32,961 bases of DNA from Opitutus sp. GAS368. Its GTDB lineage: Bacteria > Verrucomicrobiota > Verrucomicrobiia > Opitutales > Opitutaceae. The DNA lies in the NCBI GenBank assembly GCA_945869845.1, contig CAMBRG010000026.1:1-32961 (forward strand), in the 5' to 3' direction. The notes beneath the pieces were generated by a model. That model was not told the origin of the DNA, made no database searches, and saw nothing but the letters and a program-made list of their open reading frames with translations. A program made the translations under genes and the position numbers. Positions within the stretch are counted from its first letter, which is position 1; every line of letters begins with the position of its first letter. This document shows positions 24,433 through 28,290 of the stretch, piece after piece.

Positions 24433-24654
24433 ACGGAGAGCGGGCGGAGAAGTTTAATCTACCGGGGGCGCCGGGCGATTTGAAATGATGCGGGCCGGTC
24501 GCCTGATCGGGCGTGCCGTGTGCTTTCAGGTACGGCCATGGCGGCGGCTCGACCTGATTTCTTTCGGGCGCTCGGTGGGCTCAATCACCGCGGCTAGTTT
24601 GCGGGATTTGCCGAGGCTCGCGCGCCGGGCCGGCAGGCGTGGGTGGCCCAATTG

Positions 24655-24698
24655 TGACGAAAAAATGACGGAACGGTGACGTTTAGGTGACGGAAGGG
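24655..24698. promoter_or_regulatory. Four direct TGACG repeats at 11-bp steps (PhoB/OmpR-like binding array)
   Basis: TGACG begins at 24655, 24666, 24677 and 24688, exactly 11 bp apart. Read on the minus strand the units are CCGTCAC-CTAA, ACGTCAC-CGTT, CCGTCAT-TTTT and TCGTCAC-AATT: a 7-bp site plus 4 mostly A/T-rich bases. This is the layout of the enterobacterial Pho box (CTGTCAT plus 4), with one base changed (CTGTCA to CCGTCA). The array ends 45 bp before the TBDR ATG. The Pho-box consensus therefore reads on the strand opposite to the TBDR. Another OmpR/PhoB-family regulator is possible. Confidence 0.65.
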
Positions 24699-24743
24699 CT
24701 GGGGGCTTGACGGTGAATTTTGACTGTGGACACGGTCGTCACT

Positions 24744-27536
24744 ATGACCTTGTTCCGCACCTTGATCCTACTCGCGCTGACCAGCGTGTTTGCCCAATTA
24801 ACCTTCGCCCAATCCGTCGCCACGGGCACGCTCGTCGGCCGCGTGACCGATGACTCCTCCCGGCTCGCTCTTGGCGGCGCACGGGTGACCGTCGCCGGGA
24901 CAGCGCTCGAAACGTTCGCCGACCAGAGCGGTGACTACACGCTCCTTAATGTGCCGGCAGGCGCACAGACGTTGGAGTTCTCCTACGTAGGTTATCCCGA
25001 TGCCTCGCAATCGGTCTCCGTCGCCCCCACCGGGGCCACGGCGGTCAACTATGCGTTCGGCTCGAAAACGGTTAAGCTCGATGCTTTCGTCATTTCGGGC
25101 AGCGCGGTGGGCTCCGCTCGCGCGATCAACCAGCAGCGTGCCGCTGAAACCCTCACCAGTATCGTCGCATCCGACGACATCGGCCGCTTTCCCGATCAAA
25201 ATGCCGCGGAATCGATCCAACGCATTCCCGGTGTTGCGCTGTATCGCGATCAAGGCGAAGGCCGCTTCATCGTCGTCCGCGGCATCCGCCCGGATCTAAA
25301 CACCGTCCAACTCAATGGCGTGAGCATTGCCACACCGGACCGGGGCAACCGCACGCTTCCGCTCGACGTGATCCCTTCCGATGCACTTGGGGCGATCGAG
25401 GTGGCGAAAGTCGCCACGCCGGACAAAGAGATGGACGGTCTCGGCGGCCGCGTTGATCTCAAGACCCGCAGCGCCTTCGACCTGAAAGAGCGTCAACTTC
25501 AGTTCTCCGCGCAGGGCCAATACAACGACCTCCGCGACCGCCTCAGCAGTAAGTTCAACGGCACCTACGCCGACGTGCTAAACGACGGCAAGATCGGCAT
25601 CATCTTTTCGCCGACCTGGCAGGACCGCCGCATGGGCTCGGATAATTTCGAGGTCGGCGGACCTTGGTCGCTGCGCCCTGTGCCCGGCACCACGACGGGC
25701 CAGACCGCGTTTTTCAACAACGACATGAACTACCGCGCCTACGATCTCACCCGCCTGCGCTATGGAGCCAACGGTGCGATCGAGTTCAAGCCCGACCGCG
25801 AATCGCTCTTCTACGTGCGTGGCCTCTACTCGAAATTCAAAGACAGCGAAATCCGCCAGATCACGGTGGTCCCGTTCTCCGAGGGCACGCTGACGGCGCT
25901 GACGCCGGTGAGCGCCACCGTCACCGGCGTGCGCCGCGAGGCCAAACAGCTTCGCGTCCGCGCCAAAGAGCAGGATGTTTACAGCTTCAGCGCCGGCGGC
26001 GAAGTGACGCGCGGCAACTGGAAATACGACGGCCGCGCCGCTTACAGCGAGGGCAAGGAACTCCGCCCCGAGGCCGCCACCATCTTCCGCAAATCTGCCC
26101 GCGGCACGGATTGGACCTACTCCTTCGCGAAGGGGATTTATGAACCGGTGATCACTCAGACCGGCGGCACCTCGATCAGCGATCCCGCTTCGTTCAACGA
26201 ATTCAATCGCCTCCGCACCGCCCCCGCGAGTGGTTCGGAGACGGAATATAACGTCGGTGGTAACGCCCGCCTCGACTTCACCTTGGCCGGCGCTCGGCCC
26301 GCCTTCGTGAAATTTGGTGCCCAATTCCGGACCAAGGAGAAAATTCAGGAGGTCGAGCAGTTTAATTTCGCCCAGCTTCCAAGCTACACCTTTGCCTCGC
26401 TGGCCGAGCCCCAGACGGCGGACGATTACTCGTATCTCACCGGCCCACGCCTCAGTGCGGCGAAGTTCACGTCGGCGTTCATCGACAACCAAAGCGCCTT
26501 CACCCGCACCCGCGACGTCGTCTCGAGCTCGCAGGCTGACTGGACCACCAACGAAAACGTTCTCGCGCTTTACGGCATGGGTGGGGTCACCGTTGACCGC
26601 ATGAATTTTTCTCTCGGCGTCCGCTATGAGCGCACGGAGTTCGAGACGCGCGGCAACCAGATCAAGACCACCGGCAGCGCCATCGCGGTCACGCCGGCCA
26701 GCGTCAGCCGGTCTTACGATAACTTCCTGCCGGGTCTCTATCTCACCTACAATCTTTCCAAAAAGACCGTCGCGCGCGCCGCTTGGAGCAACACGTTTGG
26801 CCGGCCCACGTATTCGCAGACCTCGCTTTCGCGCAATGTGAGCGACGACAGCCGTCTCGTCACCGAGTCCAACCCCGGTTTGAAGCCGCTCACCTCGATG
26901 AACTACGATGCGTCGATCGAACACTACTTCTCGTCTCTCGGCTCGATTTCCGCCGCCGTGTTTCACAAGGACATCAAGAATTTCACCTATCAGCAGACCA
27001 CCCCCGGAGCCGACCCCGCGACTGGCTACGGTCTCAGCACCTTTGTGAACGGTCCCAAGGGAGAGATCACCGGTCTCGAACTCGCCTACCAGCAGCAGTT
27101 CAACCGGCTGCCCGCGCCCTTCGATGGCCTCGGCTTCCTCGCCAATTACACTGCGACCTCCTCTTCGGGGACGTTCCCCAATCGGCCGGGCGAAAAACTG
27201 CCGTTCATCGGCCAATCGAAGCGCATCGGCAACCTCGCGCTCACCTACGAGAGAAAGGGTCTGTTCCTCCGTGCCGCCGTCAACTTCCGTACCCCGCGGC
27301 TTCGCGAAGACGAGCCTCTCGGTTCGAACGCCTTTGAGGACCGCTACGTCGACACCTTCACGCAGCTCGACCTCACCGGTAGCTACAAGCTTAGCCGTCA
27401 GTGGGAGGTCTTCGGTGAAATTCTCAATGTGACTAATGAGCCCTTCCGCGTGCGCTTTGGCGAGAACGCCAGCCGCTTCGTTCAGCTCGAGGAATACGGC
27501 GCCACGGCCAACTTCGGCCTGCGCTGGAAGCTCTAA
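24744..27536 (+). CDS. TonB-dependent receptor, Xanth-Caul type, candidate phytate/organophosphate uptake
   Basis: The 930-residue outer-membrane receptor has a signal peptide ending at TFA/QS (after A22), then a carboxypeptidase-like regulatory beta domain (about 24-105: GTLVGRVTDDSSRLALGGARV, then YTLLNVPAGAQTLEFSYVGY), and a TonB box KTVKLDAFVISG. The plug is of the Xanthomonas/Caulobacter type (ASDDIGRFPDQNAAESIQRIPGV, GEGRFIVVRGIRPDLNTVQLNG). The barrel ends in NFGLRWKL. I start at ATG 24744; an in-frame TTG at 24720 would add 8 residues before the signal peptide. An 11-bp-step TGACG array lies 45 bp upstream and a phytase remnant follows 0.1-0.7 kb downstream. Phytase-TBDR neighbours are known in other bacteria, so phytate or its breakdown products are the best guess for substrate (inference). 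The stop is followed by a hairpin and a palindromic repeat. Confidence 0.92.
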   Translation: MTLFRTLILLALTSVFAQLTFAQSVATGTLVGRVTDDSSRLALGGARVTVAGTALETFADQSGDYTLLNVPAGAQTLEFSYVGYPDASQSVSVAPTGATAVNYAFGSKTVKLDAFVISGSAVGSARAINQQRAAETLTSIVASDDIGRFPDQNAAESIQRIPGVALYRDQGEGRFIVVRGIRPDLNTVQLNGVSIATPDRGNRTLPLDVIPSDALGAIEVAKVATPDKEMDGLGGRVDLKTRSAFDLKERQLQFSAQGQYNDLRDRLSSKFNGTYADVLNDGKIGIIFSPTWQDRRMGSDNFEVGGPWSLRPVPGTTTGQTAFFNNDMNYRAYDLTRLRYGANGAIEFKPDRESLFYVRGLYSKFKDSEIRQITVVPFSEGTLTALTPVSATVTGVRREAKQLRVRAKEQDVYSFSAGGEVTRGNWKYDGRAAYSEGKELRPEAATIFRKSARGTDWTYSFAKGIYEPVITQTGGTSISDPASFNEFNRLRTAPASGSETEYNVGGNARLDFTLAGARPAFVKFGAQFRTKEKIQEVEQFNFAQLPSYTFASLAEPQTADDYSYLTGPRLSAAKFTSAFIDNQSAFTRTRDVVSSSQADWTTNENVLALYGMGGVTVDRMNFSLGVRYERTEFETRGNQIKTTGSAIAVTPASVSRSYDNFLPGLYLTYNLSKKTVARAAWSNTFGRPTYSQTSLSRNVSDDSRLVTESNPGLKPLTSMNYDASIEHYFSSLGSISAAVFHKDIKNFTYQQTTPGADPATGYGLSTFVNGPKGEITGLELAYQQQFNRLPAPFDGLGFLANYTATSSSGTFPNRPGEKLPFIGQSKRIGNLALTYERKGLFLRAAVNFRTPRLREDEPLGSNAFEDRYVDTFTQLDLTGSYKLSRQWEVFGEILNVTNEPFRVRFGENASRFVQLEEYGATANFGLRWKL

Positions 27537-27569: not shown

Positions 27570-27637
27570 ATTGCGAGGCGCGCAAAGCGCGCCGTGGCAA
27601 TCCAGCTGGATTGCCACGGCGCTGCGCCGCTCGCGTC
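27566..27637. repeat. Palindromic repeat copy 2, right end lost
   Basis: It matches the repeat at 15962: GGTCATTGCGAG, then GGCGCGC-aaa-GCGCGCC (perfect hairpin), then the perfect 20-bp palindrome GGCAATCCAGCTGGATTGCC (27596-27615) and GGCGCTGCGCC. Where copy 1 ends CTCGCGATGACA, this copy reads CTCGCG and then goes straight into phytase coding sequence, so its right terminal repeat is missing and it marks a deletion or recombination junction. Confidence 0.8.
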
Positions 27638-28290
27638 GTCTTCGACGGTGACCGCACCCGCGGTCCGATGGGCGTAGCGCTCTATCGTCGCCCCGGCGAC
27701 GGCGCAGTGTTCGCCATCGTCGGAGGGAAAAGCGGTCCAGCCGACGGCGATTTGTGGCAATCCGGCTCTGAGCCGACGGCACCGGTAAAGCGAAGATGAC
27801 CAAGGTCCGCGCCTTCGGTCGTTACAGCGCGAAGAAAGAAATCGAAGCCATCGGGGTCGATGCCGAGCTGGGTTTTGTCGATTGTAGCGACGAACAATTT
27901 GGCGTGCGCAAATACCGCGCCGATCCAGCGGCGCCCGATGCAGCGCTGGAATTGGCGTTGGAATTGGCGCTCTTCGAAATGATCGGATTCGCGAGCGACC
28001 ATGAAGATATTTCGATCTACCCGCAGGCGGGCGGGCAGGGCTATATTCTCGTTTCGAATCAACGGGCCGACTCCTTCCGAATTTTCCCGAGGGCGGGGAC
28101 GTCGGGGAAGCCGCACGACCATCCGCTCTTGGCGAGCGTGCGGGTGAGCAGCCGGGAGAGCGACGGCAGCGAAGTCACGGTTGAGGCGCTCCCCGGATTT
28201 CCGGGCGGACTCTTCGTGGCGATGAGCACGGATCGCACGTTTCGCTCCTACGCGTGGGCCGACCTCGCCGCCGCCGCGAAGTTGAAGTGA
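27636..28290 (+). pseudogene. Beta-propeller phytase (3-phytase) remnant, C-terminal half, frameshifted
   Basis: Frame 1 (27636 to about 27772) reads TRGPMGVALYRRPGDGAVFA and GGKSGPADGDLWQ. Frame 2 (about 27775-28290) reads DGTGKAKMTKVRAFGRYSAK, KKEIEAIGVDAELGFVDCSD, EQFGVRKYRADP, DHPLLASVRVSS, ESDGSEV and FPGGLFVAMSTDRTF. Together these are the ordered landmarks of a beta-propeller phytase C-terminal half, an enzyme that releases phosphate from phytate with calcium. The switch of frame between 27770 and 27775 is explained by loss of one base (GAG-CC for GAGGCC), after which frame 1 ends at a TGA. The N-terminal half, with the usual DAADDPAIW and NNVDLRY motifs, is absent and the sequence meets a palindromic repeat instead. 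A 12-bp tandem duplication (27949-27972) puts LELALELAL in the protein, and DHEGISIY has become DHEDISIY. A fragment starting at ATG 27796 could still be translated (164 residues) but should be inactive. Confidence 0.85.

Follow-up and report, generated by a model that had tools for sequence, protein, structure and literature searches.

Four direct repeats in an exact 11-bp register lie just upstream of a gene for a TonB-dependent receptor (TBDR) in a 32,961-bp stretch of Opitutus sp. GAS368 DNA, referred to here as the window. Judged from sequence, the repeats very likely form a PhoB-type operator. It is highly probable, in our estimate, that this operator brings the TBDR, as part of a locus that scavenges organic phosphate (phytate), into the phosphate-starvation regulon. 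Phosphate control of the receptor gene is likely, with induction at low phosphate as the presumed direction. The evidence comes from the array itself, its conservation in a same-genus genome, and its recurrence at phosphate genes in the source genome and in the family.

The window array and its receptor gene

The pentamer TGACG starts at positions 24655, 24666, 24677, and 24688 of the plus strand. An earlier reading of the letters, made without database searches (the sequence-only reading), had pointed out this 11-bp step, and the positions, shuffled sequences, and a first-order model all bear it out. On the minus strand, the core units are CGTCAC three times and CGTCAT once (Table 1). The four-unit pattern has one exact match in the window, and the first-order model of the window predicts 2e-7 exact four-unit arrays per window and 2e-5 per 3.62-Mb genome. 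When up to three mismatches were allowed, two matches were found, the second being the array shifted by one unit, whereas 100 dinucleotide shuffles gave 0.01 on average. The window shows no excess of the two-unit pattern at up to one mismatch (3 occurrences, each of them inside the array, versus 3.36 expected), so the signal of the array is the run of four. The sequence-only reading had also described the unit as a 7-bp NCGTCA(C/T) followed by four mostly A/T-rich bases. The 11-bp step of this description stands, but the unit is better given as the hexamer GTGACG, and the linkers (AAAAA, GAACG, and TTTAG) are A/T-rich only in part.

Table 1. Coordinates of the array and neighboring features in the window, and arrays found upstream of dnaA.
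Feature	Location	Strand	Description
Half-site 1	24654..24659	-	GTGACG on the plus strand, CGTCAC in Pho-box sense on the minus strand; identical in G062
Half-site 2	24665..24670	-	ATGACG on the plus strand, CGTCAT on the minus strand; the A variant also in G062
Half-site 3	24676..24681	-	GTGACG/CGTCAC; identical in G062
Half-site 4	24687..24692	-	GTGACG/CGTCAC; identical in G062
Possible core promoter of the TBDR gene	24707..24736	+	Putative; TTGACG 24707-24712, 18-bp spacer, CACGGT 24731-24736 (weak -10)
TonB-dependent receptor (TBDR)	24744..27536	+	TIGR01782, PF00593 (E 6e-39), Plug, CarboxypepD_reg
PF02333 phytase remnant	27635..28251	+	Two pieces matching residues 138-339 of the 351-aa G062 gene
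GTGACG/GTTACG 11-bp-step arrays, roughly 390-570 bp upstream of dnaA	L211, L214, L221, L223, L225, L227, L229		
GTGACG/GTTACG 11-bp-step arrays upstream of dnaA, continued	L252, L277, L278, L283, L284, L289, L293		Partial dnaA-like gene in L278

The TBDR gene most likely starts at ATG 24744, with in-frame TTG and GTG codons further upstream. It lies directly downstream of the array, as the sequence-only reading had it, but the distance from the last half-site to this ATG is 51 bases and not the 45 bp given there. Between the two is a possible core promoter, whose blocks GGGGGCTTGACGGTGAATTTTGACTG and CACGGTCG are conserved in an alignment with G062, a genome of the same genus. The conserved TTGACG starts 14 bp past the end of the array. 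For a leftward promoter toward the helicase gene, no -10 element was seen by eye 10 bp past the first unit.

G062 retains the locus: all four units, a homologous TBDR, and then a full-length 351-aa PF02333 phytase. Within the array footprint, the window and G062 agree at all 24 core bases and at 7 of the 15 in the linkers (counted by eye on the alignment; Fisher p 1e-4). The phytase remnant that the sequence-only reading recognized behind the TBDR is confirmed by its PF02333 match. An in-frame stop lies between or beside its two pieces, and residues 1-137 of the G062 phytase were not found in the window. The two genomes are 98% identical in the helicase gene and 85-98% in neighboring genes, whereas the TBDRs are only about 49-50% identical. 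A receptor about 49% identical amid neighbors 85-98% identical suggests that the receptor was replaced or diverged fast. Despite this low identity, the promoter region and signal peptide of the window TBDR resemble those of its G062 counterpart (L377 5877-8681).

A search of the 12 other genomes of the genus for proteins homologous to the window TBDR (E 1e-100) gave matches in two, at full length in G062 and as a contig-edge fragment with 96% identity in G080. The G080 contig begins inside the TBDR gene, and a tblastn search of its first 6,000 bases (L379 1-6000) found no phytase. Three states of the phytase are therefore seen in one genus: full length in G062 (L377 8775-9830), truncated with a stop in the window, and not found in G080. 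Because the TBDR and its array are kept in the window without a working adjacent phytase, the receptor probably serves more than the enzyme next door.

A related arrangement is known from Flavobacterium johnsoniae, where portions of PMC8115612 describe a phytase and its adjacent TonB-dependent transporter (Fjoh_1367/1368), as well as a transporter of the PhoBR operon, as responding to phosphate depletion. There, too, a PF02333 phytase stands beside a TonB-dependent transporter. The window differs in that it comes from what is presumably another phylum, its phytase has decayed (the G062 gene is full length), and the operator is visible. The PhoB regulon of Caulobacter likewise includes TBDRs and a phytase, according to an excerpt of PMC11208175.

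Recurrence of the array at phosphate genes

The PhoB/OmpR-type operator proposed by the sequence-only reading is supported by the recurrence of the array at phosphate genes, both in the source genome (G000) and in its relatives. Exact three-unit arrays occur at three places in the source genome, which fall into two loci (the window and contig C63), compared to none for the reversed control. With up to two mismatches, there are 14 places versus 2 for the reversed pattern. On C63, the array has a PF13449 phytase-like gene on one side and a divergent AAA ATPase gene on the other. An array with one mismatch lies in front of a TBDR gene on contig C65, which carries the porin-pst-phoU-phoB genes. 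The genes after the TBDR on this contig share its strand for the most part. They encode a 598-aa protein and, past one opposite-strand gene, a Porin_5 porin, two PstS proteins, PstC, PstA, PstB, PhoU, and an OmpR-family regulator. The sequence-only reading had named the absence of the motif from other phosphate genes of this genome as evidence against itself; a check of part of these genes instead found arrays before the TBDR of the pst contig C65 and at the C63 phytase-like gene. The 598-aa protein behind the pst-linked TBDR (L145 10503-12299) had been clustered as phytase-like, an assignment that was dropped: it has no Pfam match, and its similarity to the C63 phytase-like protein is limited to 116 aa at the C terminus.

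The two-unit pattern GTGACG-N5-GTGACG has eight exact places at seven loci in the source genome, and 35 places versus 5 reversed when one mismatch is allowed. Four of the seven exact loci lie before TBDRs (on C13, C26, C27, and C65, with C26 being the window) and one lies at the phytase-like gene. Of the remaining two, the C30 site is flanked by a pseudouridine-synthase gene and by a gene that matches a hydrolase weakly, and the C14 site is inside a called gene. The box in the porin-pst promoter of the source genome is degenerate: just two units are clear, at a distance of 22 bp, and TATCGT follows exactly 10 bp beyond.

Across 80 genomes of the family, the three-unit pattern with up to two mismatches matched 109 places (47 genomes with a match), compared to 13 for the reversed pattern. 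A 10-bp step gave 13 places, and its reversed pattern a number of the same order. A 12-bp step gave 709 places, far above the 11-bp count. It was unusable as a spacing control because the matches listed look like in-frame Val-Thr codon repeats (by look, uncounted), and the 10-bp step was taken instead. Outside the source genome, 90 distinct sites were retrieved; they fill 91 rows, with the L209 locus split by binning and L207 dropped as a duplicate of L206. Genes were called with a simple codon-usage caller, and the names of neighbors come from clustering and from Pfam scans of representatives that covered part of the singletons. Only 7 of the 90 sites fall within called genes, although 86% of the retrieved sequence was called coding.

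Sites of phosphate type lie at genes for porins (11), PstS (3), GT4 glycosyltransferases (7), and phytase-like proteins (4, each PF13449), with single sites at VTC, PhoD, DUF3419, and metallophosphoesterase genes. We take the DUF3419 protein to be BtaA and the metallophosphoesterase to be PlcP-like; the names OlsB-like and ispG are likewise presumptive. TBDR genes account for 11 sites, two of which are shared with divergent phytase-like genes. Other sites lie upstream of dnaA (14), at single-domain response regulators (5), and at OmpR regulators (2). A further 24 of the 90 lie near genes without a clear phosphate role, such as gyrB, exosortase, PEP-CTERM, and pseudouridine-synthase genes, and a CHAD-domain gene and two GNAT genes among these 24 could be phosphate-related. 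The arrays at single-domain response regulator genes (L230, L275, L282, L269, and L285) stand 23-72 bp before the gene, which in the first three is divergent from a ParA-like gene. In L257, the array is flanked by a gyrB gene (52 bp) and by a gene for a 532-aa protein without a Pfam match (37 bp). Beyond the GT4 gene, G062 encodes an MGDG-synthase-like glycosyltransferase, a diacylglycerol kinase, and a metallophosphoesterase. These genes resemble the PlcP/Agt lipid-remodeling genes of marine bacteria, for which putative Pho boxes are described in part of PMC4796936.

The clade consensus of the unit is CGTCAC-N5. Base frequencies at 28 sites of phosphate genes (P-gene sites), which were selected by the pattern itself, are C.85, G.98, T.86, C.80, A.99, and C.96. 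At porin sites, the distal unit is often TGTCAC and the proximal unit often CGTAAC. The PHO box is characterized, in the portion of PMC4415409 drawn on here, as 11-bp direct repeats of 7 conserved and 4 less conserved bases with a species-specific core. The boxes of this family are like those of PhoB (E. coli CTGTCAT) and PhoP (Streptomyces GTTCACC) in their 11-bp direct repeats, in their location at pst, phosphatase, phytase-like, and probable lipid-remodeling genes, and, for canonical sites, in a last unit 10 bp before a -10-like element. They are unlike them in the core CGTCAC, in the four units of the window, and in the reversal of most TBDR sites. A literature search for a Pho box in Verrucomicrobia or PhoB in Opitutus returned little.

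Which protein would bind these sites? The candidate is the OmpR-family regulator of the pst contig (C65:589-1275). Its best NCBIfam model is PhoB (TIGR02154) with 237.8 bits, under the curated cut-off of 296.2, followed by MtrA with 214.1 bits, and its best-scoring solved relative is also MtrA. In this 83% complete genome, PF00486 is found at four places, namely C65, a near-copy on C117, C150, and C49. C117 is a short contig (L141) on which a second, slightly different partial PhoB gene copy stands beside a PhoR-like histidine kinase (read by eye). From its sequence, this copy may be either a paralog or the result of strain mixture in the assembly. The genome contains both a PhoB-like gene, on C65, and a PhoR-like gene, the kinase just mentioned.

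Polarity of the boxes and rival explanations

The sequence-only reading cautioned that the window consensus runs opposite to the usual orientation relative to the TBDR. This caution was well placed. At most P-gene sites, CGTCAC points toward the gene, whereas it points away from the gene in the window and at 11 of the 15 TBDR sites in all. The ratio of reversed to canonical sites is 11:4 for TBDRs and 1:28 for other strict P-gene sites (Fisher p 2e-6, for events that are not independent). These polarity statistics count orthologs separately (window/G062, C65/G062, and C13/L248), and two TBDR sites are counted also for divergent phytase-like genes.

Canonical sites have a fixed promoter geometry. 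A -10-like nAnnnT lies exactly 10 bp past the gene-proximal unit at 16 of 28 canonical-polarity P-gene sites, and the next best offset has 5. Without the 11 porins and L206, the count is 7 of 16, with a maximum of 4 at eight other offsets recounted. In E. coli, the spacing from the pho box to the -10 element is also 10 bp. For E. coli PhoB, part of PMC10294691 reports that the pho box and the core promoter are strictly spaced. Reversed TBDR arrays show no clear peak for a -10 at a fixed distance (the largest count is 5 of 15 rows, with several sites in two registers), and the window array has neither the gene-ward polarity nor the -10 at 10 bp that mark the activating class. In front of the C65 TBDR gene and its G062 ortholog, 18 bp separate the third unit from a downstream TATAGC, which puts the unit at the -35 position. 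Because the window array is reversed and without the fixed -10 geometry, it is, by its letters, a Pho-box-type array whose mode of action would be non-canonical or invisible from sequence.

How might such an array act? At low phosphate, a PhoR-like kinase would phosphorylate PhoB, the winged-helix domains of which would bind head to tail on the 11-bp repeats, with two dimers on the four units. Bound PhoB would then raise transcription of the TBDR gene. Given its reversed polarity and its end 14 bp ahead of the TTGACG, the window array would act from upstream of the -35 element and not as a substitute for it. A different outcome of the same binding is conceivable, in which PhoB on the reversed array would cover the TGAC that serves as the -35 and so repress the TBDR gene, or no more than tune its expression. 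Such a role would fit the reversal of 11 of 15 TBDR sites versus 1 of 29 other strict P-gene sites, as well as the third unit at the -35 position in C65 and its G062 ortholog, and sections of PMC10294691 present PhoB as a dual regulator depending on site position. However, the C65 TBDR sits on the pst-phoB contig, comparable TBDRs elsewhere are induced by low phosphate (PMC11208175 and PMC8115612, each in part), and the polarity test counts orthologs separately and lacks independent events. Repression or tuning is an unlikely role.

The identity of the regulator also has to be weighed, since a different OmpR-family protein, similar to MtrA, could own the GTGACG repeats and have the phosphate genes as a subset of its targets. 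PF00486 is found at four places in the source genome, MtrA is the second-best NCBIfam model of the C65 regulator, the dnaA-upstream sites have the same consensus, and MtrA boxes are GTCAC direct repeats that are present at oriC (PMC4285127, in part). Apart from dnaA, however, most targets that can be recognized are TBDR genes or genes for phosphate and P-free lipids, and it is the C65 regulator whose gene adjoins phoU and pst. An MtrA-like owner is quite improbable. That the array is a chance run or a neutral minisatellite is barely credible. Many perfect tandem repeats in unrelated genomes are among the four-unit matches listed, but in the array considered here the linkers vary from unit to unit and between species while the cores are fixed, and only 2e-5 exact four-unit arrays are expected in the genome. 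The tandem-repeat matches come from a collection-wide scan with the exact four-unit pattern, which hit at least 119 stretches, included low-complexity DNA as well among the matches listed, and was uninformative for the window array. Four contigs of that scan (L087, L108, L116, and L120) carry arrays of a similar GTGACGGAG type, with a GTCAAACTGGCAGAATTA-like tail behind them, that look like a dispersed repeat family. The preferred reading remains that of a PhoB-type operator that would activate the TBDR gene.

Arrays upstream of dnaA

A more surprising lead than the window operator is a like array upstream of dnaA. A DnaA_N match was present in 79 of 80 genomes, from which 76 upstream regions were assembled, 72 of them long enough; three further regions (5, 3, and 6 mismatches) stand outside the 72 counted. 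When up to 3 of the 18 core positions may mismatch, a three-unit GTGACG array is present in 24 of the 72 regions; in G017 and G052 it stands well away from its usual place. None came up in these regions with the reversed pattern or with steps of 8, 9, 10, 12, 13, and 14 bp. With the relaxed unit GTKACR at 420-580 bp upstream of dnaA, a unit and range picked after the first result was known, the array is found in 32 of 72 regions at up to 2 mismatches and in 37 at up to 3, compared to 0 and at most 1, respectively, for other steps treated alike.

Both orientations are present among these arrays, and in most cases the array is at or just past the end of an upstream ispG-like gene (12 regions; gene read by eye). 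The DnaA-box-like word TTATNCACA occurs in 60 of the 72 regions. In the source genome, all that is present is a weak array of GTTAC type, at 507 bp. No -10 peak was found at 14 dnaA-upstream sites in the canonical sense (no offset with 3 or more), and the largest count in the other sense was 4 of 14.

The array upstream of dnaA is possibly a response-regulator site at the replication origin. One tentative proposal, which we regard as somewhat doubtful, is that PhoB or a close OmpR-family relative occupies this array and would couple the phosphate-starvation signal directly to replication initiation. Such coupling would parallel the action of CtrA, ArcA-P, and MtrA at origins elsewhere. CtrA, ArcA, and MtrA are among the response regulators known at origins, as described in part of PMC4285127. 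The MtrA boxes of the mycobacterial oriC in that account are alike in being OmpR-family direct repeats with a GTCAC core in the origin region. They differ in that four dispersed two-unit boxes are found there, whereas this family mostly has a single array, at 420-580 bp before dnaA, whose consensus is that of the phosphate genes. In Caulobacter, phosphate starvation blocks replication initiation via limited DnaA, according to an excerpt of PMC10723716. A search of the literature on PhoB with oriC or the origin of replication, with subscription papers mostly outside its scope, returned no title or abstract opening on PhoB boxes at an origin.

With a Pho box defined from sequence for this group, the phosphate regulon of unannotated genomes of the family could be read from DNA. 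Such a box predicts that some TBDRs of the family take up organic phosphate. It also exposes two oddities, the reversed boxes at TBDR genes and the like array upstream of dnaA.
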